Assembly: GCA_021738405.1 (NCBI GenBank)
Contig: JAIPCC010000004.1
Span: 1 to 59,367 of the forward strand
Source: Crocinitomicaceae bacterium
Lineage (GTDB): Bacteria; Bacteroidota; Bacteroidia; Flavobacteriales_D; Crocinitomicaceae
DNA: 59,367 nt
Direction of reading: 5' to 3'
Part shown: positions 967-49,419 of the stretch, in pieces
Layout: each line of letters starts with the position of its first letter
Position numbering within the stretch: the stretch's first letter is position 1
Notes under the pieces: model-generated
Seen by the model: the letters and a program-made list of their open reading frames with translations, nothing else
What the model was told of the DNA's origin: nothing
Databases searched by the model: none
Program-made: the position numbers and the translations under genes

Positions 967-3966
967 TCAATATTTGAGTAGTTCGAGGGTTTGTAGTTTA
1001 TCCTCCCCTTTGTAAATCGTTAGCCAATAAACAGCCGCACGTTGCACAGTAAGGTCAAGTATGGTTTCATAAGTGTCCGAAATGGGTCCTTTTTGAATGA
1101 CCCTTCCCTGTAAATCGTAAATAAAATACTGACAATCTTTGGCAAGATCTTTATTGGTGCTCCAAACTGAAAAGAGACCATTACTCGGGTTGGGCTGCAC
1201 ACTGAACTCAATATAAGGAGGGTCGGGCGGAAGCGGCACCACTTTAAACACAGCCGTGAAAGTCTGGTTGGTTTGCGTGACAAAAACCGATAGGCTATCT
1301 GCTAGGCTATCAACAATATTTGCCGCGGGTAGCCAATGCGAAAAAATATAGCCGGGCTTGGCAACAGGCTGCAGTTGAATGGGCACGCCGTCATAGTAGG
1401 TTCCGGACCATGGGTAGCTTGCGGGTTGAATCGTATTGAGCTGGATTTCGCCAGCCATTTCAGGGTATACTTGCAGATTGACTTGTACTTTTTTGGTCAG
1501 GTTGAATTGTGCGAGCAGCTGATTGAATACGAAAGTAGAACGACACAGCAATTGATCCTGGAATATTTGGTGGTTTGCTTCAAACGTAGCCATTTGGCCT
1601 GCAATGTTGTTGGGGTCGCCCCAGCGGGCAAACTGTAACGGCATTTCGGGCAGCATCGATTCGTAAAACCCTTGTTCGGTGGCCAGCAATTGTTCTTGGC
1701 GGTAGCTGGTGTTCATTTGGTCGGCGAAGCGATTGATGAAATAATTGCGGTAGGCCAAATTTTCAATGCTTTGTTTCCAGATATTGATATACGGGTTGTC
1801 TTCGGATTGCCCCATCATGTAGGCGATGTGGTTGTCTGTACAGTTGGTCCAGCCGTTGGGTTGCATGGATAATTCTAAATCGATGAGCGCAAAGCGCCAA
1901 CGCTTTTGGCTGGCATCTGAGCGGTAAATTTTGATGTTGTTGCCGGGCCAGTCTACGTTGCCCATCCAAGACTCCCCAATGATGTAGTCAGTGTAGTGCT
2001 TGAGGTCAAAATATTGGTCGACATCTTGCCAATAAGTGGGCGACGACGGGTCGAGCGCATTGAAATTGCTGTAGTCAGACCAAAAATTATCTACATCGCC
2101 TTCTACCGCTCGCAAAACAAGATTGTACCAGTAGCTGAGGGAGAGCAGTTCGATGGAGTCGCGGGTGGCGTTGTCGTGTTGTTCAAAGAACTCTTGGTTG
2201 AATTTTTCGCGCAGTTCATAGAGCCCAAAATAGGCGCCGTTGATGTAGACACTTACTGGTCGGTAACTCGCATAATAATTGGCAGAACCTTCGCTCATCA
2301 TCCGAACCTGGCTGGCGTCTTTATAAGGCAAGTTGAGGTATTGATTGGATCCATTGCGCAAATAAATATCGCTGTATAGTGTTCTGTTTGGTCTGTCGGG
2401 TAATAACGGAAACGAAATGGGCTTGTCTCCAAAGGCACCATCCGTAAAACTCAAACGGAAGGAATGCTGCGGATGAGAACGACTGCCGCCTGCTCCGCCA
2501 TCCATGCGCATTGCTGTTTTGGTTTGATGCAATATGGGGTGTGTTTGCCCGGTGTCTAAGAGCACTGCATAAGCCGGCTTGACCCAATCGGTCCACCAGT
2601 TGTCGAAAATGCCACTCGCACCGTAAAGGTTTTCGTTGGGCGTATTGACCAATAGAATAGGCGTAGAGTGTGAGACCCCAAAAAGATAGGTCGCAACCGC
2701 TTGTTCACTTGGCAACAGGTTATTGTTGTTCAATGGAAAAACTTTTGCGCGCAAAACCTGGTTGCTACTGACCGATACAGGGCCAACATAGGTGGCAGAA
2801 TTGATAGTAGGGTCTTGGCCGTTGATGGTATAAACGAGCTTGCCTACAGTATTTGGAATACTCGTTGAGATTTGAACACTTTGCAAGCCGTTGTAGATTC
2901 CGCTGGCCAAGCTAATTTGCGGGCGAGGTAGGGTATCTGAAAAGGTTTGGTTGCCGTTGTTGCTCAGGCCAGGGCTTGGGCTCATCCAAGTGAGGTTTGT
3001 GCTGCCGTTCGGGAAGCGCCCGATTGAAATATCTGGCTGCGGGCAAACGATTTCTAGCTGATCTTGGAGTTGATTAGTTGAATTGAAAAGATAGACGTGC
3101 TCGCCGGTACCATCCAATTTAAAGTTGGTATGGAGCAATTGGCCTTGTAAGGGCAGGAAATTGGCATCGAGTTCGGTGAGTGGGGTTTGAATAAGGGCGA
3201 TATCGATGTAATCATAAAACTCTCCGTTGGTGCTGGCTACCTGAAAAGAAAGTGAAAAAATAGGGCCTGCATTGAGCCCCGCCGCTTGTAGTTCACTAGC
3301 TAAAATGAGCATTTGGTGTCTAGCGCCCCAATACCAGTTGCCGTAAGGTGCAGGGTAGTCTGTATTGCTGTTGGTAATGGTACCGGTGCCTATAATGGCA
3401 TTATTGAGCTTGATGTTAGGTCTTTGGTTATAAGTTTGCCCGATGTTATTGCTGCAGGCCGCAGGTGATCCGTCTACAAAGCTTGCTACACAAGATGTAA
3501 ATGGCGTTGAGCTTTGATAGAAAACGGAATTCTCTGTATAGCCCGTATTGTTGTAAGAACAAACATTGACAATGATATTTGAGCTGCCATCCCAGTTAAA
3601 CGCTTGGCTAAAAGGGTGTGTGTTCCAGCTAACGACAGGCTGAAAACTAGTGGTGTTGGCAGTTGGCGTAAACGGTGGGCTGCCGTAGCGGTCTTTGCCA
3701 CTGCAAAAAACGCGCATAAATGATTGCGCAGGGATGTTGAGATTTGGGAATATCCATGCATTGAGTCCGTTCAATTGATCTGCTAATTTCCAATTCTCGA
3801 GATTTACGCTAGAAGTGCTGTTATTGTATAATTCTATCCAATCGGGGGCATCGCCGTTTTCGTCTTGTTCGGCAAAGGCATTTTTGTTGCAACCTTCGTT
3901 GAGCAATACTTGTGCATCAAAAGACCCTAGAAAGCATAAAATGACTAAAGTTTGAAAAAATCTCAT
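967..3966 (-). CDS. Secreted CotH-kinase / lamin-tail protein with T9SS sorting domain
   Basis: 999 residues. Domains in order: signal peptide (1-18, ending FDAQ), lamin-tail domain (about 19-125, with DWIELYN), a beta-rich region, a chitobiase C-terminal-type beta domain (about 345-430, with YTINGQDPT), a CotH-like protein kinase domain (about 435-800, with ELREKFN), a beta repeat with GYIFSHW, and a C-terminal type A T9SS sorting domain (about 920-999, starting VQPNPSNG and ending in short KLQTLELLKY). CotH domains phosphorylate secreted proteins in Bacillus; the substrate here is unknown. The usual DLD metal motif reads DLE near residue 695, so activity is not certain. The protein is predicted to be exported and anchored at the cell surface or released. 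A strong terminator for the upstream gene lies just before this start. Confidence 0.85.
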   Translation of the reverse strand: MRFFQTLVILCFLGSFDAQVLLNEGCNKNAFAEQDENGDAPDWIELYNNSTSSVNLENWKLADQLNGLNAWIFPNLNIPAQSFMRVFCSGKDRYGSPPFTPTANTTSFQPVVSWNTHPFSQAFNWDGSSNIIVNVCSYNNTGYTENSVFYQSSTPFTSCVASFVDGSPAACSNNIGQTYNQRPNIKLNNAIIGTGTITNSNTDYPAPYGNWYWGARHQMLILASELQAAGLNAGPIFSLSFQVASTNGEFYDYIDIALIQTPLTELDANFLPLQGQLLHTNFKLDGTGEHVYLFNSTNQLQDQLEIVCPQPDISIGRFPNGSTNLTWMSPSPGLSNNGNQTFSDTLPRPQISLASGIYNGLQSVQISTSIPNTVGKLVYTINGQDPTINSATYVGPVSVSSNQVLRAKVFPLNNNNLLPSEQAVATYLFGVSHSTPILLVNTPNENLYGASGIFDNWWTDWVKPAYAVLLDTGQTHPILHQTKTAMRMDGGAGGSRSHPQHSFRLSFTDGAFGDKPISFPLLPDRPNRTLYSDIYLRNGSNQYLNLPYKDASQVRMMSEGSANYYASYRPVSVYINGAYFGLYELREKFNQEFFEQHDNATRDSIELLSLSYWYNLVLRAVEGDVDNFWSDYSNFNALDPSSPTYWQDVDQYFDLKHYTDYIIGESWMGNVDWPGNNIKIYRSDASQKRWRFALIDLELSMQPNGWTNCTDNHIAYMMGQSEDNPYINIWKQSIENLAYRNYFINRFADQMNTSYRQEQLLATEQGFYESMLPEMPLQFARWGDPNNIAGQMATFEANHQIFQDQLLCRSTFVFNQLLAQFNLTKKVQVNLQVYPEMAGEIQLNTIQPASYPWSGTYYDGVPIQLQPVAKPGYIFSHWLPAANIVDSLADSLSVFVTQTNQTFTAVFKVVPLPPDPPYIEFSVQPNPSNGLFSVWSTNKDLAKDCQYFIYDLQGRVIQKGPISDTYETILDLTVQRAAVYWLTIYKGEDKLQTLELLKY

Positions 3967-39993: not shown

Positions 39994-40423
39994 AGCGCAG
40001 CGTGATTTCTCGACTTTGGTCGGGTTCTATACGAATATACAGCCTAAAGTGCGGATTTGGAATAATCGCCTCGATTTTTTGTGGCCATTCAACTAAAAAA
40101 TAAGCATTTTCATCGAAGAGTTCTTCTAGACCGAGGTTTTGAATTTCTTGCTCATTTTCAATGCGATAGCAATCGAGGTGATAAACAGCACCCTTTTGCG
40201 GGCTGTCATAAGGTTGAATCAGGGCAAATGTGGGAGAGCCTTCAAAGTGTGTTATTGCTACCTCTTCGAGTAAAGCCCGAACAAGTGTTGTTTTGCCGCA
40301 GCCCATTTCTGCTTCTAGCGCCACAAAACAAGGGGCAGGAAGTAGAGACCAAAGCGCTTTGGCAATTGTTGGCAGCTGCTCAAGACTTACCCCAGGCCAA
40401 AAACCGATGGTTTCAGTTGCCAT
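39983..40423 (-). CDS. tsaE: tRNA threonylcarbamoyladenosine synthesis ATPase TsaE
   Basis: 146 residues. Part of the TsaBDE complex that forms t6A37 in tRNAs. Walker A EMGCGKTTLVRALL (G41-T46) where most have GAGKTT, SPTFALIQPY, YHLDCYRI, and EWPQKIEAIIP. Overlaps ald and lpxH by 11 bases each, so translation of the three is likely coupled. Confidence 0.93.
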   Translation of the reverse strand: MATETIGFWPGVSLEQLPTIAKALWSLLPAPCFVALEAEMGCGKTTLVRALLEEVAITHFEGSPTFALIQPYDSPQKGAVYHLDCYRIENEQEIQNLGLEELFDENAYFLVEWPQKIEAIIPNPHFRLYIRIEPDQSREITLRYDH

Positions 40424-41192
40424 GGTAAGCGCTTACTTGGTTATCGGCCCACTGCAGGAGTTCGAGTTTTTCGGTGTCAAAGCGGGCAAAAGTATAGTAT
40501 TGCAACCAATCTCCTGTATTGACATAAAGCGCGTTTTCGTGCTGCAGATATAAAGGAAGGTGGCGATGTCCAAAAATATAGTAGTCGTGGTGTTGTGTTT
40601 GCGCGAGTTCTTGCACATATTGAAAGAGCCATTCGTCTTGTGGCCCCGTGTATTTAGCGTCTTTCGACCCGCCATTAGCACGGCTTCTGCGCGATAAAAA
40701 GCTTGCCAAACCAATTCCGAAATTAGGATGTAGCCGGGCAAAAAGCCATTGACATAAGCTGCTTCTGAAAAAGCGCTTGAGCACTTTGTATTTGTAGTCG
40801 CCGGGGCCTAAGCCGTCGCCGTGATGCAAATAAAATTGTTTGTCGCCGTAGTTGAAGGTATAGGAATCGCTGTGGAGCGTAAGGCCGAGTTCTTTTTCAA
40901 AATAATCAAATACCCACATGTCGTGGTTGCCCTTGAAAAAGTGAATTTCAATACCTGCGTCTGAAAGCTCGGCAATTTTGCCAAAAAGCCTGGTGTAGCC
41001 TTTTGGTACAACCGTTTTGTATTCAAACCAGAAGTCAAATACATCGCCTAGCAGATAAATGGCCTTTGCACTTGGTTTGATATGATCTAGCCAATTGATG
41101 AAGGCTTTTTCTCGGGCAGCACTTTTTTGTGCATTGGGCGCACCCAAATGGAGATCTGAGGCAAAATAGATGTATTTAGGCTGGTCTGCCAT
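40413..41192 (-). CDS. lpxH: UDP-2,3-diacylglucosamine diphosphatase LpxH
   Basis: 259 residues. Metallophosphatase step of lipid A synthesis, at the inner membrane. Seen: FASDLHLGAPN (D13, H15), LLGDVFDFWFEYK, FFKGNHDMWVFDY, LHHGDG and the closing YYIFGHRHLPLYL. The layout fits Bacteroidota LpxH. One-base overlap with the TlpA gene upstream; lpxK lies 4.6 kb away in the same run. Confidence 0.92.
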   Translation of the reverse strand: MADQPKYIYFASDLHLGAPNAQKSAAREKAFINWLDHIKPSAKAIYLLGDVFDFWFEYKTVVPKGYTRLFGKIAELSDAGIEIHFFKGNHDMWVFDYFEKELGLTLHSDSYTFNYGDKQFYLHHGDGLGPGDYKYKVLKRFFRSSLCQWLFARLHPNFGIGLASFLSRRSRANGGSKDAKYTGPQDEWLFQYVQELAQTQHHDYYIFGHRHLPLYLQHENALYVNTGDWLQYYTFARFDTEKLELLQWADNQVSAYHGN

Positions 41193-42298
41193 TAGAAACC
41201 AAAGATTTGCTGAAGGGTTTGCTCGAGCGCAGCACCTCTTAAATTAGTGGCAATGACGCGGCCCTCTTTGTCTAGTAATACAGTAAACGGAATGGATTGA
41301 ACGCCGTAGAGTTGAGCCACTTTACTTTGCCATCCGCCGAGGTCACTGACGTGATTAGGCCATGCCAATTGATCGGCTGCAATAGCCGCCAACCATTTGT
41401 CTTTGTTGGAGTCAAGGGAAACACTCATGACGGTAAAGCCGGCATCTTTGTATTTTTGGTAGTTCTTCACCACGTTGGGGTTTTCTGCACGGCAGGGCCC
41501 ACACCAAGATGCCCAGAAGTCCAGTAATACGACTTGTCCTTTCAGGTCTGAAAGTTTCATTTGCTTTTTGCCGTCTGTGCGCAATTCTTCAAAATCAGGT
41601 ACCAATTTGCCGCGTGCAAAAGGGTCTGCGGCCTCGCGCTCTTGTTTTTTGGCTAAGTATTGTTTGTAAAGGTTTTGAACAATTGTACTTTGACCAAAAC
41701 TTTGATAAAGCGGTAGCATAAGTTTTTCGTAATTCGCAAAGTCTTGGTCTATTTGCATGCTGCTGAGAGGTAAAATGAGGGCCGCTGAGTTGGCGTACAT
41801 CCCGACATAACTCTGGAGTGCTGTTTGGAATTGGCTGTAGGCTTGGGTCATGTAGCTATTGATCTCGGCTTCTTTACTCGGGTCGGTCTTGATGGCCAAA
41901 AGCGCGGAGTCTGCTTTGTTTCTCCAATTGGCATTGAGCACTACATATTCGAACATTTGACGCGATTCTTCTGAATTGACGAAGTTGCAAAATTGAAGTA
42001 GGTTGCGTCCGTCTCCAAAGATTTTGATGCGCGTGGTATCGCGGATGACGATATTGAGGGAGTTCTGACCGATGCGTAAGATATAGTAGTCGGGGCCAGG
42101 TAAGATACCCTTGAGTTCAAAATTACCTTTGTTGCTTACTGGACTCGCGTAATAATCTTTAAATGTGCTGCCGAATTGTTGAGATAAATAAACTGAATCT
42201 GCGCCGCTCGAAAAAATCTGCCCACTGATTTGAAAAGGCTGACCTTGTCCAAAACAAAATAGGGGTAGCAGCAAAAGAAGGGTGAGACAGCGGTTCAT
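41192..42298 (-). CDS. TlpA-like thioredoxin with DUF4369 domain, copy 1
   Basis: 368 residues. Signal peptide (1-18, ending FGQG; no lipobox). N-terminal DUF4369-type beta domain (about 22-130), helical linker, then a thioredoxin/AhpC-TSA domain with FWASWCGPC at about residue 262 and a cis-Pro SIPFTVL. Periplasmic thiol-disulfide oxidoreductase of the TlpA/ResA type. The next gene upstream is a tandem paralogue. Confidence 0.9.
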   Translation of the reverse strand: MNRCLTLLLLLPLFCFGQGQPFQISGQIFSSGADSVYLSQQFGSTFKDYYASPVSNKGNFELKGILPGPDYYILRIGQNSLNIVIRDTTRIKIFGDGRNLLQFCNFVNSEESRQMFEYVVLNANWRNKADSALLAIKTDPSKEAEINSYMTQAYSQFQTALQSYVGMYANSAALILPLSSMQIDQDFANYEKLMLPLYQSFGQSTIVQNLYKQYLAKKQEREAADPFARGKLVPDFEELRTDGKKQMKLSDLKGQVVLLDFWASWCGPCRAENPNVVKNYQKYKDAGFTVMSVSLDSNKDKWLAAIAADQLAWPNHVSDLGGWQSKVAQLYGVQSIPFTVLLDKEGRVIATNLRGAALEQTLQQIFGF

Positions 42299-42299
42299 G

Positions 42300-43487
42300 T
42301 TATTTGAAAATTTGAGCTAATTTGTCTTGAAGTTTTTGCCCTCTGAGGTTGGTGCCTATTATTTTACCATCTGGATTGACCAATACGGTGTAAGGGATGC
42401 CATCAAATTGATAAAGTTGTGGCAGATTTGACTTCCAGCCCAGTGCTTCATTTACTTGGTCTGGCCAGGTCATTCCAAAGGATTTGATGCCTTCTTGCCA
42501 TTTATTTTTGTCTTCGTCGAGGGAAACGCTGAAAACGGTGAAGCCTTTATTTTTGTATTTGTTGTAAGCGGCTATGACATTTGGCATCTCGCTCTTGCAG
42601 GGCCCACACCAAGAAGCCCAGAAGTCAATTAGGACGTATTTGCCTCTCAAGGAACTCAGGGAACGCGTTTTGCCAGTAGGGTCGGGGAGCGCAATTTCTG
42701 GTGCAGCCATACTGCCATTAGTCATTTGGGTGTAGGCAAAAAAGGCGTCCTCAATTTGGGCATATTGCGCTTGCATGTTTTGACTTGCCGCTTGCCCTGG
42801 AAAGCGCTGTGCGTAAGCTGCGCTTAATTTTTCTAAGGTGGTGAGATGGGAGGCATTCCAATCTTCAAAGCCGGTGGTGGGCAGCAAATTCATGCTGAGC
42901 ATGATATTCAACGGACTGCTCAAATCTTGGTTAATTGCCTTGACACAAAACGCTTCATAGCTTGCTTTTGCTGCTGTGTACGCCGCATTGATGGCGTCTT
43001 GATCGAGCTTGCGCGTATTTTGCTGCAATTCGTTTTGGGTCGATTCAAAACGTTTGGTTGCCATCAATAGTTCGGCATAGGTATTTGCCCATTTGACACC
43101 ACCTAAACCTGGTTTGAAGCTGAAATCCGTGAGTCGACAGCGCAGCGAAATGTGGTCTTTAGGTTGCAAGGGGAGCCAAAGTGTGCTGCCGTTTAAATCT
43201 GATATACGCAAGTTGTAGAGCCCGAGCCCAGGAATATTGGCTGGGAGTTCAAAAGAACCATCTGCTGCAATTTCAGTTTGGGCAACGGAAATGACACCGC
43301 GGTCACTAGGGGCTTCTAAAAAGAGCTGCAAGCCACCAGCACCTTGAATTTGTCCGCTGATGAAAAGATTTTCTTCAAGTCCGTTTTTTTCGAGATCAGA
43401 GCGATTGACATACCACAAGATGAGACCTCCGATGGCCACTAGGAGGAGAATCCAAACTAGTTTTTTATTGGATTTCAAGAAGGACAT
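42300..43487 (-). CDS. TlpA-like thioredoxin, membrane-anchored, copy 2
   Basis: 395 residues. A transmembrane helix at about 8-26 anchors it to the inner membrane, then a DUF4369-like beta domain (LFISGQIQGAGG...), a linker and a thioredoxin domain with FWASWCGPC near residue 290 and cis-Pro GIPYTVL. The last about 110 residues are alike to copy 1 (FTVxSVSLDxxKxKW, IGTNLRGQKL). Only one base separates the two. One-base overlap with gatB. Confidence 0.9.
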   Translation of the reverse strand: MSFLKSNKKLVWILLLVAIGGLILWYVNRSDLEKNGLEENLFISGQIQGAGGLQLFLEAPSDRGVISVAQTEIAADGSFELPANIPGLGLYNLRISDLNGSTLWLPLQPKDHISLRCRLTDFSFKPGLGGVKWANTYAELLMATKRFESTQNELQQNTRKLDQDAINAAYTAAKASYEAFCVKAINQDLSSPLNIMLSMNLLPTTGFEDWNASHLTTLEKLSAAYAQRFPGQAASQNMQAQYAQIEDAFFAYTQMTNGSMAAPEIALPDPTGKTRSLSSLRGKYVLIDFWASWCGPCKSEMPNVIAAYNKYKNKGFTVFSVSLDEDKNKWQEGIKSFGMTWPDQVNEALGWKSNLPQLYQFDGIPYTVLVNPDGKIIGTNLRGQKLQDKLAQIFK

Positions 43488-44941
43488 TAGTTTTCAAGTT
43501 TTTGTCTGAGTAGTCCATTTGCCGCTTTAGGGTCGGCTTTACCGCCAGAAACCTTCATGAGTTGGCCCATAAAGAACCCGATGAGTTGTTTTTCACCGCT
43601 TCTGTATCGGTTGACTTCGTCCGGATTTTGCACAATAACGGTGTCGATGAAACCTTCGATGACATTGCTATCTGAACTCTGGATGAGGTTGAGTCTTTCG
43701 GCGATTTCTAAGGGTGTTTCTGTGGTTTCAAAAAGCGCAGGAAACAGTCGTTGGGCTGCAATGGAGTTGGATATTTTGCCTTGATCGATGAGCTGAATCA
43801 AAGCAGCGATTCGCGCTGCGGAAATCGGGAAGGTGGAGATATCTACACCTTGCTCATTGAGGTAAGATTTGATTTCGCCCATGAGCCAATTGGCTGCAGC
43901 TTTGTAATTTTTGGTAGCACTGATGAGCGCTTCGTAATACAAGGCCAAACCTTTTTGATCGGTAATGTTGTAGGCATCGTAATCGCTGAGGCCATACGTT
44001 TTGGTATAGCGTTCAAATAACGCATTTGGCAAGGCCGGCATGTCTTTGGCGATCTCCGCAATTTGGTCTGTGCTGACTGTAATGGGAGGGAGGTCGGGTT
44101 CTGGGAAGTAACGGTAGTCGTTGGCGGCTTCTTTGGTACGCATCGAGATGGTGCTACCTTTTAGCGCATCAAAGGCACGGGTTTCTTGGGTCAGCGGCTC
44201 GCCGTTTTCTAATGCTTCAATTTGGCGGGTAATTTCAAACTCAATGGCTCTTTGTACGTTGCGGATGGAGTTCATGTTTTTGACCTCTACCTTGGTACCA
44301 AATTCTTGGGCGCCAACCAAACGCACAGAGACGTTGGCATCGCAGCGCATAGATCCTTCTTCCATGTTGCCATCGCAGATGTCGAGGTAGCGCAATAGTT
44401 TGCGTACTTCTGTGAGGTAGTTGTAGGCTTCGGTAGACGAACGCAAATCGGGTTCGGAAACAATTTCGAGTAGGGGCGTGCCGGCGCGGTTGAGGTCCAC
44501 GAGGGTGTCGTAGACATCGACGTCGTGGATGCTTTTTCCAGCATCTTCTTCCATGTGAATACGCGTAATTCCAATAGATTTTTGCGAACCGTCTTCGGTG
44601 CGGATCAGGATTTGACCACCTGTACAAATTGGGGTGGTGTCTTGGGTAATTTGATAACCTTTTGGAAGGTCAGGGTAGAAATAGTTTTTGCGCGCAAAGT
44701 ATTGTGCTGGGGCTATCTGACAGCCACAAGCAAGTCCGAGTCTGATGGCAAAATCAATGGTTTTGCGGTTCATGACGGGTAGGGTGCCCGGGTGGCCTAA
44801 GGTAATGGCACTCACGTTGGTGTTGGGTGCTGAACCATAGGCATTGAGGTCCGAAGAATAAGCTTTGGTTTGTGTCAGGAGCTGCGCATGGACTTCAAGT
44901 CCGATGACGACCTCATAACGATCTCTGAGCGTTTGTTCCAT
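43487..44941 (-). CDS. gatB: Aspartyl/glutamyl-tRNA amidotransferase subunit B
   Basis: 484 residues, full length. Kinase-like subunit of GatCAB, which turns Glu-tRNA-Gln into Gln-tRNA-Gln. Seen: VVIGLEVHAQLLTQTKAYS, HPGTLPVMN, FYPDLPKGYQITQ, EEDAGKSIH, SMRCDANVSVR, KEAANDYRYFPEPDLPP and a C-terminal YqeY-type helical tail. gatA and gatC are not adjacent. Confidence 0.97.
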   Translation of the reverse strand: MEQTLRDRYEVVIGLEVHAQLLTQTKAYSSDLNAYGSAPNTNVSAITLGHPGTLPVMNRKTIDFAIRLGLACGCQIAPAQYFARKNYFYPDLPKGYQITQDTTPICTGGQILIRTEDGSQKSIGITRIHMEEDAGKSIHDVDVYDTLVDLNRAGTPLLEIVSEPDLRSSTEAYNYLTEVRKLLRYLDICDGNMEEGSMRCDANVSVRLVGAQEFGTKVEVKNMNSIRNVQRAIEFEITRQIEALENGEPLTQETRAFDALKGSTISMRTKEAANDYRYFPEPDLPPITVSTDQIAEIAKDMPALPNALFERYTKTYGLSDYDAYNITDQKGLALYYEALISATKNYKAAANWLMGEIKSYLNEQGVDISTFPISAARIAALIQLIDQGKISNSIAAQRLFPALFETTETPLEIAERLNLIQSSDSNVIEGFIDTVIVQNPDEVNRYRSGEKQLIGFFMGQLMKVSGGKADPKAANGLLRQKLEN

Positions 44942-44955
44942 GCTGGAGTAGTGTA

Positions 44956-45768
44956 TTAGATGCTGGAAATGAGTTCTTTCATGATGTGCGTCATTTTGGG
45001 CTCTTGACGGCTTGCCACTTCAATGACATCTTGGACACTTACTTTTTTGATTTTGCCCGGTACACCTAAGTCGGTGATGATCGAGATGGCAAAACAAGGA
45101 ATGCTCATGTGGCGTGCTACAATGACTTCTGGTACGGTAGACATTCCGACTGCGTCGGCGCCAATTGTGCGCACATATTTGTATTCAGATGGCGTTTCGA
45201 GGGTCGGGCCCGTGAGGCCTGCATAACAACCCACCGCAACGCGAATGCCTAAATTTTTGGCAATTGCAGTGGCTTTGTCGATCATTTCTTGGTCGTAAGG
45301 GTCTGACATGTCGGGGAAGCGTGGGCCGAGCTCGTCGATGTTTTTGCCGATCAAGGGGTTGCCCGGAAATAAATTGATGTGGTCGTTCATGATCATGATT
45401 TCACCCACCTCAAAATCCGGATTGACGCCCCCAGAAGCGTTGCTGACAAAAAGACGCTCTATGCCGAGTAGTTTCATGACGCGAACGGGGAAGGTAACTT
45501 GCTGCAGCGTGTAGCCCTCGTAGTAATGAAAGCGACCTTGCATCGCGACCACATTTTTGCCGCCAATGCGACCAAAGATGAGTTTTCCAGAATGGCTTTC
45601 TACGGTAGAAACCGGAAAGTTCGGGATGTCTTCGTAGTTGATTTCGTCGATGATTTCGATTTCCTTGACCAAACCACCCAAGCCTGTTCCTAAAATGATA
45701 CCAATGCTGGGTACAACATTTGTTTTACTTTGAATGTAGGCGGTACTTTCTTTAATTTGAGACAACAT
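44956..45768 (-). CDS. Purine-nucleoside phosphorylase (PNP family 2-type)
   Basis: 270 residues. Phosphorolysis of purine nucleosides in salvage. Seen: GIILGTGLGGLV, HSGKLIFGRIGG, AMQGRFHYYEGY, VSNASGGVNPDFEVGEIM, NPLIGKN, GCYAGLTGPTLETPSEY and DAVGMSTVPEVIVA. This is the mammalian/PunA-like trimeric class. Its start overlaps the 3' end of lpxK by 17 bases. Confidence 0.94.
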   Translation of the reverse strand: MLSQIKESTAYIQSKTNVVPSIGIILGTGLGGLVKEIEIIDEINYEDIPNFPVSTVESHSGKLIFGRIGGKNVVAMQGRFHYYEGYTLQQVTFPVRVMKLLGIERLFVSNASGGVNPDFEVGEIMIMNDHINLFPGNPLIGKNIDELGPRFPDMSDPYDQEMIDKATAIAKNLGIRVAVGCYAGLTGPTLETPSEYKYVRTIGADAVGMSTVPEVIVARHMSIPCFAISIITDLGVPGKIKKVSVQDVIEVASRQEPKMTHIMKELISSI

Positions 45769-46768
45769 AAGCGCTAATAAATTGATTAAATGCAGCTTGT
45801 TCCAACCATTGGAGCTCGAAAGTCAACAGATACCAAGGGTACTTTTGTCGGTCTTCGGCGCTCAGTAAAGATTGAATTTTGACCCAATCTTTGGCGGTTG
45901 TCACAATTGCAGAATTTGCTGTGGCAAAGGTATCAAAAAAATGGTGAATTTCATCCACGTTTGCCTGTGTGTACGCGTGGTGATCCGGATAACTAATGTG
46001 TTGAATGCGCACATCTTGAGCGAAGGCTTCGTCGAGGTAACCCGGTTTGGCAATTGCACTCACCAGTAAAACATCTTGAATGTCCGCTACTTCATTGGTG
46101 AGGCTAATCAGTGGCTTGTAGACATATCTCGAAAAAAACACCGGGATTTTCCACTTTTGATACTGTTTGGCAAATGCAATGTGGTCGAAGGTGTCAAACG
46201 GCGGACATTTGGTAATGATCAGTGCGTCTGCGCGCTTTAGGCCGCCTTTGTGCTCTCGCAAATTTCCTGCGGGTAAGAGTGCGTCTTGATGCAAAGGCTG
46301 TGCATGGGTTGAAAGTACTAGGTTCAAGCCTGCCTTGACCCAGCGGTGTTGGAAAGCATCGTCTAATAAAATGAGCGATGCAGGTGCTGTACTTCTAAGT
46401 CGTTGGATGCCGTAATGTCTGTTTTCACAAACTGCAAATTGTGCTTTCAGGTGGTATTGAGCATACAACATGCATGATTCATCTCCCACTTCTCGAGGTG
46501 TTTTTGCGGCATCTAACAAAATGAATCCGGAGGTTTTCCTGCCATAGCCACGGCTCAAAACCTGGACTTGGAACTTTTCGGAAAGTTGTTCGATCAGATA
46601 GCCCACATGTGGCGATTTGCCGGTGCCGCCAACAGCAATATTACCGACGCATATCGATTTGCCTGATATGGGTTTCGTGCGCAGAATTTGCAGCTCAAAG
46701 CAGCGGTTTCGCAACCAGATCACAGCGCCGTAAATCAGCGCAAAAGGATATAGCGCCAGCCTGCGCAT
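45752..46768 (-). CDS. lpxK: Tetraacyldisaccharide 4'-kinase LpxK
   Basis: 338 residues. Phosphorylates the lipid A disaccharide at the inner membrane. N-terminal membrane helix (about 6-20), Walker A NIAVGGTGKSPH (47-52), LSRGYGRKTSGF, VGDESCMLYA, and LILLDDAFQHRWV. Runs into the purine nucleoside phosphorylase gene with a 17-base overlap. One base lies between it and the DUF4956 gene. Confidence 0.95.
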   Translation of the reverse strand: MRRLALYPFALIYGAVIWLRNRCFELQILRTKPISGKSICVGNIAVGGTGKSPHVGYLIEQLSEKFQVQVLSRGYGRKTSGFILLDAAKTPREVGDESCMLYAQYHLKAQFAVCENRHYGIQRLRSTAPASLILLDDAFQHRWVKAGLNLVLSTHAQPLHQDALLPAGNLREHKGGLKRADALIITKCPPFDTFDHIAFAKQYQKWKIPVFFSRYVYKPLISLTNEVADIQDVLLVSAIAKPGYLDEAFAQDVRIQHISYPDHHAYTQANVDEIHHFFDTFATANSAIVTTAKDWVKIQSLLSAEDRQKYPWYLLTFELQWLEQAAFNQFISAYVVSN

Positions 46769-46769
46769 A

Positions 46770-47441
46770 TTACTGTACGTGGTAGTCAGAGAATTCTTGC
46801 TCGTCGGCGTAGTAGTAAATGCGCAATAATGCCGTATCGTTCAAGAAGTCAATTTTACCCACCTCCACACGGTTGATTGTCAGGCCTGTACGTTTTTCGA
46901 GGTCTGCCTTGAGTAAGTCGTGATTTTCTGGCTTGATGAGGTCGATGCGCTCGTAGTTGATGGTTTTGCGTGTTTCGTGCTTCATTAACCAAAGGTTTTC
47001 GAGCACGTAAGTCATTATAACAATGGTGATATTGATGACGGCTACCTCGGAAATACTGAGTTCGTTAGAGGCCAAAGCGTTTACAACACTCACACCAATG
47101 ACCATAAATAAATACGTCATTTCTTTGATTTCAATGGCGTCGGTGCGGTAGCGGATGATGCCGAAAATGGCAAAAAGACCCAAGCCCATTCCGGTGTCGA
47201 TGTCCATTTGCATGAGGCCAAAACACAAGAAGAACGTGATGGTTCCGATCAAGTAATACGTGAATAGGTAATCTTTGCGACGCGTTTTGGTGTAGTATAA
47301 ACCACGGATGAGGATGGTCAAAAAGATTAGGTTGATACCTAAACGCATGAGTAATCCGTAAAAATCTTCACTGAACCAAGTGATGGTATTTGGAGAAATT
47401 GCTTTTTTGAGGGGGAGTAGGAAAAATAGGTCAGCTAGCAT
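46770..47441 (-). CDS. DUF4956 membrane protein
   Basis: 223 residues. About four transmembrane helices in the N-terminal half, then the DUF4956 signature FAIFGIIRYRTDAIEIKEMTYLF, and a soluble C-terminal domain (about 160-223, with VEVGKIDFLNDTALLRIYYY). Partner of the VTC-domain gene upstream, with an 11-base overlap. Such pairs are seen in many bacteria; the membrane protein may move or store the polymer (inference). Confidence 0.9.
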   Translation of the reverse strand: MLADLFFLLPLKKAISPNTITWFSEDFYGLLMRLGINLIFLTILIRGLYYTKTRRKDYLFTYYLIGTITFFLCFGLMQMDIDTGMGLGLFAIFGIIRYRTDAIEIKEMTYLFMVIGVSVVNALASNELSISEVAVINITIVIMTYVLENLWLMKHETRKTINYERIDLIKPENHDLLKADLEKRTGLTINRVEVGKIDFLNDTALLRIYYYADEQEFSDYHVQ

Positions 47442-48186
47442 GGTTGATTTTATTTAAAAAGAGGAGCTTCTTTTTGAAGCGATTGAATTTGAGTACTTCT
47501 TCACCGTAAATTTCTACACTGCCAATGCAATATTTCGAGAGGCGGTAGGGTCTGATGCGTTCCTTTTTCATGAGAATATAAAAAGGAGAATTGCGGTCTA
47601 GGGTTTCTTGTTTGAGTTCGGCAATGACCAATTGTTTGAATTCGCGTTTGACGTCGCCCATATGAAAATTGATATCGAAATCTAGGGTGAGGCGTTCTTT
47701 ACTAGTGTTAGAGACGAGGGTGATGCGCTGAAAAGCATTCCACATAGTGGGTTGCAATTGGGTATCTTCGTTGAGCTGTCTGCGCAAGAAGTCACGCTCT
47801 TTCTCGTCCTGAAGCTCATTGAAATCGTTGGTGAGTATGCGGCGTTTGTCGGTGCGGCCTTTGATTTTGTGCTTGATTTCTAAAAAATGAATGTTGGATT
47901 CGACGTATTTGCGAATCCGGACTTTGTAGCGGTCGGCCTTTCCGTTGTGATGATCTCGGAAAAATGAAAAAGAAGCATCGTCAAAATAGAGGCTTTCGTA
48001 ATGTGGTAACATAGTGCCTTCAACCTTTAAAGCGCGGTAATCGGCGGCTAAAATGGGTAAAAATCGGAGTAGGTCGTCTTGGCGAAAAGCAAACTTGGTG
48101 TCTACGCGGTTCATCAGGTTGACATCTGCCATTTCCCGGAGGTCAATGGGGTCAAACTGCTCGATTTCTGTCTTGATATTGCTCAT
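47431..48186 (-). CDS. VTC-domain polyphosphate polymerase-like protein
   Basis: 251 residues, only the tunnel-type catalytic VTC domain found in eukaryotic Vtc4. Seen: the conserved basic and acidic tunnel residues in NRVDTKFAF, YKVRIRKY, FLEIKHKIKGRTDKRR, LDFDINFHM and VIAELKQE. The Vtc4 domain makes polyphosphate from ATP; bacterial relatives are mostly untested. No SPX domain. First in an operon with DUF4956. Divergent from purT. Confidence 0.87.
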   Translation of the reverse strand: MSNIKTEIEQFDPIDLREMADVNLMNRVDTKFAFRQDDLLRFLPILAADYRALKVEGTMLPHYESLYFDDASFSFFRDHHNGKADRYKVRIRKYVESNIHFLEIKHKIKGRTDKRRILTNDFNELQDEKERDFLRRQLNEDTQLQPTMWNAFQRITLVSNTSKERLTLDFDINFHMGDVKREFKQLVIAELKQETLDRNSPFYILMKKERIRPYRLSKYCIGSVEIYGEEVLKFNRFKKKLLFLNKINHAS

Positions 48187-48196
48187 CTATGTTTTC

Positions 48197-48204
48197 CAAA
48201 AATA
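48197..48204 (-). promoter_or_regulatory. Candidate -7 box of the VTC operon
   Basis: TATTTTTG on the minus strand, 10 bases before the ATG at 48186. The 51-base divergent gap also holds the purT box. Confidence 0.4.
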
Positions 48205-48237: not shown

Positions 48238-49419
48238 ATGAAGTTCAAAATTCTCTTACTCGGCTCGGGTGAACTCGGAAAGGAGTTCGTCATTGCAGCC
48301 AAGCGCTATGGTCAGACCGTTATTGCGGTCGATAGCTATGCTGGCGCGCCAGCGATGCAAGTGGCCGATCAGTACGAAGTCATCGATATGTTAGACGGAG
48401 CCGCGCTCGATAAGGTTGTAGCCAAGCACCAACCCGACATCATTGTGCCGGAAATTGAAGCGATCCGCACCGAACAATTTTATCAATACGAGGCCCAAGG
48501 TATCCGCGTGGTACCGAGTGCAAAGGCGGCAAATTTCACGATGAACCGCAAAGCCATCCGCGACCTCGCCGCAAAAGAAGTTGGGGTGCGCACGGCGCCG
48601 TATCGCTACGCAACTAGTTTGTCTGAACTCCAAGAAGGCGTGGCTTTTTGCGGCTACCCTTGTGTGGTGAAGCCTTTGATGTCCAGCTCTGGCAAAGGGC
48701 AATCTGTGATCCGTACCGAGGCCGACATCGAAAACGCCTGGAACTACGCCATGGAAGGTTCCCGAGGCGACCTCAAAGAAGTCATTGTAGAGGGCTTCAT
48801 TAATTTTGACTACGAAATCACGCTGCTCACCTTGACCCAACAAAATGGCCCCACTTTGTTTTGCGCGCCAATTGGCCACCGACAAGAGCGCGGCGATTAC
48901 CAAGAAAGTTGGCAGCCAATGCCCATGAATGCGGCGCACCTTGCCGAGGCACAAGATATGGCCGCAAGGGTCACTGCGGAACTCGGTGGAGCGGGCATTT
49001 GGGGCGTGGAATTTTTCATTACCCCAGAAGGTGCTTATTTTTCAGAATTATCTCCGCGTCCGCACGACACCGGAATGGTGACGCTTGCTGGCACACAAAA
49101 CCTCAATGAATTTGAGCTGCATGCCCGTGCTGTTTTGGGCTTGCCCATCGCTGAAATCCGTCAGATTCAGAACGGTGCAAGCGCTGTTGTTCTAGCCACT
49201 CAAAATAGCGAAAGTGCGCCTCAATATCTCGGCCTTGATAAAGTACTCTCAGACACGAATGCCGAAGTGCGCATTTTTGGCAAGCCCACAACTAGGCCCT
49301 ATCGCCGCATGGCAGTTGCTTTGGCTTTTGGCCCCGAAAATGTAGATGATTTGGTCCAAACCGCAAAAAAGCATGCGGCCAATATTCAAATTGCTTATGC
49401 AAATGAGAAAATGAATTAA
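48238..49419 (+). CDS. purT: Formate-dependent phosphoribosylglycinamide formyltransferase
   Basis: 393 residues. ATP-grasp enzyme making formyl-GAR from GAR, formate and ATP in purine synthesis. Seen: [28 protein letters not shown] at the start, [40 protein letters not shown] and [12 protein letters not shown]. Single gene with its own promoter. Confidence 0.96.

Follow-up and report, generated by a model that had tools for sequence, protein, structure and literature searches.

A VTC-type polyphosphate polymerase domain paired with a DUF4956 membrane protein in Crocinitomicaceae: a conserved gene pair and candidate membrane-coupled polyphosphate synthase

Bacterial polyphosphate synthesis is described through PPK1 and PPK2, and the presence of a VTC-type domain beside a DUF4956 membrane protein in a Crocinitomicaceae genome raises the question of what such a pair does. 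One simple answer, that VTC replaces PPK1, is ruled out, as the same genome also has PPK1; VTC would hence be an additional polyphosphate route. We analysed the pair within a stretch of 59,367 nucleotides (herein referred to as the window), in which the following features are relevant:

967-3966, minus strand: CotH-domain secreted protein with LTD, CHB_HEX_C and CotH domains and a T9SS tail; judged to lie outside the system
45752-46768, minus strand: lpxK (lipid A 4'-kinase; PF02606, E 7.5e-68), 1 base 3' of the DUF4956 gene
46770-47441, minus strand: DUF4956 protein, 223 aa, ATG start; five predicted helices long enough to span the membrane, then an ACT-like domain at the C-terminus
47431-47441, minus strand: 11-base overlap between the 3' end of the VTC gene and the 5' end of the DUF4956 gene, from the sequence
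47431-48186, minus strand: VTC-domain protein, 251 aa, ATG start; predicted soluble polyphosphate polymerase with a triphosphate tunnel fold
48238-49419, plus strand: purT (NF006766, E 5.2e-172), divergent neighbour and operon boundary

The window pair is an authentic, conserved VTC-DUF4956 unit of a kind already known. Both open reading frames were confirmed on the minus strand at the positions given by an earlier, sequence-only reading of this DNA, as was the 11-base overlap that it described, through which translation of the two genes is likely coupled. The upstream frame matches the Pfam VTC family (PF09359: E 1.9e-24, 87 bits against a cut-off of 23, profile positions 1-231 of 235) and the downstream frame matches DUF4956 (PF16316: E 8.1e-57, 192 bits against a cut-off of 30.6, profile positions 1-169 of 169); no NCBIfam family was found for either protein. 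Both genes are under purifying selection, with dN/dS of 0.03-0.05 among nine relatives wherever the ratio was computable (synonymous sites were saturated for some values), and chance open reading frames or a wrong annotation are ruled out by the Pfam matches together with this constraint. Ten bases 5' of the VTC start codon, the minus-strand sequence TATTTTTG (48197-48204) fits the Bacteroidota -7 promoter consensus, TAnnTTTG, and given this promoter-like element a near-leaderless VTC transcript is possible.

The arrangement extends to named relatives at 91-98% identity, largely MAGs that carry the label Crocinitomicaceae, Cryomorphaceae or Flavobacteriales. VTC and DUF4956 are both present in 61 of 62 named loci (which were fetched with the VTC protein), lpxK lies on the same strand in 46 of the 62 and purT on the opposite strand in 46; the named loci without the lpxK/purT arrangement are short contigs or belong to other lineages. 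We regard lpxK as a conserved operon neighbour in this lineage that probably has no role in the mechanism. It is followed on the same strand by a purine nucleoside phosphorylase gene, gatB, two thioredoxin-fold genes and an lpxH-like gene (the thioredoxin-fold and lpxH-like genes were named by reading their sequences). These genes (40413-46768), lpxK and the lpxH-like gene among them, form with VTC-DUF4956 a single compact operon that is conserved across freshwater Crocinitomicaceae-type MAGs.

Pairing of the two families is near-obligate in a wider sample. Among 296 genomes drawn from the phylum, VTC was found in 48, DUF4956 in 74, CotH in 107 and PPK1 in 267, and the co-occurrence survey proposed in the sequence-only reading places DUF4956 in 48 of 48 VTC genomes, directly downstream, on the same strand and within 600 bp for 51 of 55 VTC matches. 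Of the four matches without a direct DUF4956 neighbour, three lie in loci where other genes separate the two and one is a fragment, and a 787-aa frame containing VTC in locus L025 was set aside as a spurious long frame. Two loci, L182 (G254:C123) and L183 (G019:C20), have the gene order DUF4956-CotH-VTC in place of VTC-DUF4956; their CotH-like proteins (875-900 aa, with an N-terminal hydrophobic segment) take the CotH label from our own drifting model only. PPK1 accompanies VTC in 46 of the 48 genomes, including that of the window.

The converse association is looser: VTC is absent from 26 of the 74 DUF4956 genomes, which argues that DUF4956 is not only a polyphosphate channel. In one such locus (L053; G188:C1:1470104-1473556), DUF4956 without VTC is flanked by genes for a myo-inositol-1-phosphate synthase and a phosphate-selective-porin-like protein, with CotH next; the inositol neighbour is intriguing, given that eukaryotic VTC is regulated by inositol pyrophosphates. 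In two others (L055 and L060), VTC-less DUF4956 proteins of 185 aa adjoin MORN-repeat proteins.

We favour, with a probability of about one half for the model as a whole, the reading that the pair is a membrane-coupled polyphosphate synthase, with export as its weakest step. VTC would bind ATP in its basic tunnel in the cytoplasm, add phosphates to a growing polyphosphate chain and dock on DUF4956, which would be a divergent inner-membrane protein of the MgtC superfamily whose conserved R-x-R motif would sit where predicted membrane helix 3 meets the cytoplasm. The chain would pass from the VTC tunnel to DUF4956 and then across the inner membrane, and the ACT-like cytoplasmic domain of DUF4956 may act as a gate that responds to a bound small ligand, the part played by SPX in yeast. 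A DUF2490 outer-membrane barrel or a HlyD/TolC-type pair would, in other lineages, complete the path to the outside, where an extracytoplasmic CotH protein would act; in this lineage, any barrel, HlyD/TolC or CotH partner would be unlinked to VTC-DUF4956. What survives of the interpretation first put forward is a VTC-type domain with intact tunnel residues and a membrane protein that is always present in our sample, whereas the CotH gene 43 kb away does not stand as a partner.

That membrane protein had been described as four-helical; its AlphaFold2 model (pLDDT 83.7) instead has five membrane-length helices and a C-terminal beta-alpha-beta-beta domain. Aspartate kinase ACT chains match the model at E about 0.4, with a Foldseek probability of up to 0.92. 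R97 (47153-47151) and R99 (47147-47145) are the sole fully invariant residues across the 37 aligned DUF4956 rows (alignment A2, 37 of 46 rows), and hydropathy and charges suggest a cytoplasmic C-terminus and would place both arginines where helix 3 reaches the cytoplasmic side. No confident match to the model was found among solved (PDB) and viral structures, there is no MgtC entry among the rows listed in the DUF4956 structure searches, and the best result of a DUF4956 profile search of the PDB was only E about 1.

Profile comparison nevertheless identifies the DUF4956 family as a remote relative of MgtC/SapB (PF02308) by transitivity. The window protein matches DUF4956 as its sole family, with no PF02308 match even at E 10; PF02308 is matched by 14 of 37 DUF4956 members at E up to 10 (best 1.2e-6), as the second family after DUF4956, and a PF02308 search of 61 genomes weakly matched two DUF4956 genes. 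Against MgtC (alignment A3, 11 of 26 extracted rows), hhalign gave probabilities of 77.6-82.5% for the whole DUF4956 set and 96.9-98.1% for 15 divergent members, and no direct signal (0.03%) for 22 window-type members, which in turn matched the 15 divergent members at 97.9%. The relation follows because window-type members resemble the divergent members and these resemble MgtC. Controls remained low throughout (no more than 0.71% in 30 column shuffles, under 1% in reversals and no more than 0.18% for six other hydrophobic-segment clusters). An MgtC relation is already in print for the family: the available portion of PMC12345266 describes SIR_1592 of Streptococcus intermedius as MgtC plus ACT, and SIR_1592 is probably a DUF4956 protein, judging from the available portion of PMC7112168.

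The same MgtC relation and ACT-like C-terminus favour the main rival of a membrane-coupled synthase, namely that DUF4956 is an MgtC-like regulator that responds to a metabolite through its ACT domain and turns VTC (and, in other genomes, CotH or an export pair) on or off, with polyphosphate staying in the cytoplasm at the membrane. Salmonella MgtC targets PhoR and activates phosphate transport (as given in the accessible part of PMC6658541), and the 26 DUF4956 genomes without VTC also speak for a regulator. We nonetheless consider this reading somewhat unlikely, as recurrent HlyD/OEP-type and outer-membrane barrel neighbours better fit a role in transport.

Such neighbours occur in two forms. 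Among the 29 VTC loci outside the main operon type of the window's lineage, 17 have a member of a DUF2490-like cluster (210-259 aa) no more than four genes from the pair, in 16 cases immediately 3' of DUF4956, and Flavobacteriaceae account for 6 of these 17 loci, so that the independent events are fewer than 17. All three of the 17 cluster members scanned with Pfam are DUF2490 (PF10677), two of them with outer-membrane barrel matches, and BT3498-BT3499 of Bacteroides thetaiotaomicron are listed as DUF4956 with DUF2490 in the available text of PMC10434189. The second form is an HlyD-like gene (cluster c6, 8 loci) 3' of DUF4956 in the VTC-less loci L173-L178 and in L179 and L181; the four cluster members scanned with Pfam all have biotin-lipoyl/HlyD matches, and L181 shows the gene order CotH-DUF4956-HlyD-OEP-VTC (HlyD_D23 4.9e-12, OEP 4.3e-17). 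Six third genes were scanned in these HlyD-type loci: besides the OEP gene of L181, that of L174 has a sub-cut-off OEP match (0.0019), and for those of L173, L175, L177 and L179 no Pfam match was found. The window operon has no export gene, and the three DUF2490 genes of the genome lie on other contigs.

If the favoured synthase is extended to its fullest form, the pair would belong to a polyphosphate export machine running from VTC through an MgtC-like DUF4956 channel to HlyD/TolC or a barrel in some lineages, and polyphosphate in the periplasm or at the surface would supply phosphate to CotH kinases outside the cytoplasm, where ATP is unavailable. We regard this extension as a long shot.

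A profile built from 44 diverse VTC members (alignment A1, 44 of 54 non-redundant rows) retrieved seven PDB sequences at E<=1, all yeast Vtc4 or Vtc2 (best 3.9e-15); the profile was needed, as a single-sequence search gave only weak, chance-like matches to GID4, which we rejected. In the aligned profile, the tunnel Arg/Lys residues and the metal-binding Glu of yeast Vtc4 (K200, R264, R266, K281, K294, R361, R373, E426, K428 and K458) are identical at ten of ten positions. Their counterparts in the window protein are K31, R90, R92, K105, K114, R154, R165, E190, K192 and K218 (217 in the numbering of the profile). All 44 rows agree at twelve columns, including R90, K105, R154 and K218, and conservation of E190 and K192 is 90% or higher. 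A catalytically impaired yeast Vtc4 carries R264A/R266A/E426N (available portion of PMC9911596).

The AlphaFold2 model of the VTC protein (pLDDT 94.6) likewise finds VTC chains at ranks 1-8 of its structural matches (Z 15.4-18.6), the seven best being VTC tunnel domains (Z 17.5-18.6, rmsd 3.1-3.5, 208-220 aligned residues). Loss of the tunnel Arg/Lys/Glu residues, which the sequence-only reading had named as grounds for abandoning a polymerase, is therefore ruled out. The alternative that VTC is a CYTH-type triphosphatase, or acts on some other triphosphate, and forms no polymer draws on the shared superfamily fold (the best non-VTC match to the model reaches Z 14.8) and on our literature search, in which no measured activity of a bacterial VTC protein was found in the text available. 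We judge it improbable: no CYTH enzyme chain appears at E<=1 in the VTC profile search of the PDB, the best fold matches are all VTC, and the N-terminal ExExK motif of CYTH triphosphatases is absent near the VTC N-terminus, where residues 27-31 read R-V-D-T-K, with arginine in place of the first glutamate.

CotH connects the pair to a further reading. CotH occurs in 47 of 48 VTC genomes and in 60 of the 248 without VTC (a statistic that ignores kinship among genomes), and by hand count a Pfam CotH match lies within 6 kb of at least 17 of the 55 VTC matches and within 3 kb of at least 13, lower bounds taken from the Pfam matches listed. Our own iterated CotH model drifted and gathered T9SS tails (L062:7966-8973, for one, lacks a Pfam CotH match), so its labels are treated as leads only and CotH counts are from Pfam. 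In the window, VTC-DUF4956 is flanked by purT and lpxK rather than by CotH. The CotH gene at 967-3966, to which the sequence-only reading had drawn attention, is real (PF08757, E 6.2e-18), but the tree rules it out as the operon-type partner: it forms a long branch in a weakly supported group, whereas two of the four CotH matches in the source genome, on contigs C10 (481 aa) and C67 (531 aa), group with CotH proteins that adjoin VTC-DUF4956 elsewhere (support 97/98 and 100/100). This tree kept 26 of 29 rows, three short-domain rows having been dropped, and some of the kept rows are proteins from the drifted model.

The least probable reading considered here, that the pair contributes to a polymer at the cell surface, or to decorating it, through extracellular phosphate chemistry rather than storage, is encouraged by this CotH association, by lpxK and the lpxH-like gene in the window operon and by the same genes in Gram-positive Pel loci (available portions of PMC7112168 and PMC12345266), but PelG is above cut-off in none of the 48 VTC genomes (two weak sub-cut-off matches were seen) and no polysaccharide-synthase gene was found among the window neighbours scanned.

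If the membrane-coupled synthase is real, bacteria with PPK1 would have a second synthase beside it and a separate polyphosphate pool, possibly outside the cytoplasm, and the widespread DUF4956 and CotH families would share a chemistry. Translocation or gating of polyphosphate by MgtC-related proteins, if true, would also bear on the influence of MgtC on phosphate and ATP. Specialists may be surprised by the export-gene context and by the occurrence of the CotH-VTC-DUF4956 trio outside Pel loci.

Known systems close to the pair include the accessory genes of Gram-positive Pel loci. According to the available portion of PMC7112168, CotH, poly-phosphate polymerase, DUF4956 and DUF4832 genes adjoin Gram-positive pel genes, and the Pel locus of S. 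intermedius (SIR_1592-1594) shares with our loci a VTC-type polymerase with DUF4956 (there, MgtC plus ACT). The differences are that PelG is missing above cut-off from all 48 VTC genomes, which places the CotH-VTC-DUF4956 neighbourhoods found here outside Pel loci, and that in the window genome CotH is unlinked and lpxK lies 3' of the pair. The available text of PMC12345266 states that the three-gene arrangement is not found outside Pel loci, and the CotH-VTC-DUF4956 groups in genomes without PelG contradict this statement. The sequence-only reading had called such pairs little tested; our literature search found no work that names DUF4956 together with VTC, but this 2025 deletion study covers the Gram-positive trio. 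In the portion available, deletion of SIR_1592 (MgtC plus ACT) or SIR_1594 (CotH) lowered aggregation and no loss of aggregation is reported for deletion of SIR_1593 (polyphosphate polymerase), a result that, together with the VTC-less DUF4956 loci, weighs against polyphosphate as the only cargo.

MgtC/SapB proteins resemble DUF4956 in a multi-helix membrane domain with an ACT-like C-terminus and in the profile link through divergent members, whereas the MgtC motifs GxERE, AGxRT and GLTTAA (alignment A3) are absent from the window protein. PPK1 (PF02503) has the same proposed product, polyphosphate from ATP, but belongs to an unrelated family and is co-resident with VTC in the window genome as in most VTC genomes of the sample. 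The yeast VTC complex (the Vtc4 tunnel domain with Vtc1/2/3/5; PDB 3g3q, 3g3r, 7ytj, 8i6v, 9umg) shares the tunnel fold, the listed Arg/Lys/Glu residues and the pairing of a catalytic domain with membrane helices; it differs in that the 251-aa window protein consists of the VTC domain only by Pfam, without SPX or DUF202, and the membrane part is encoded by a separate gene of another family.
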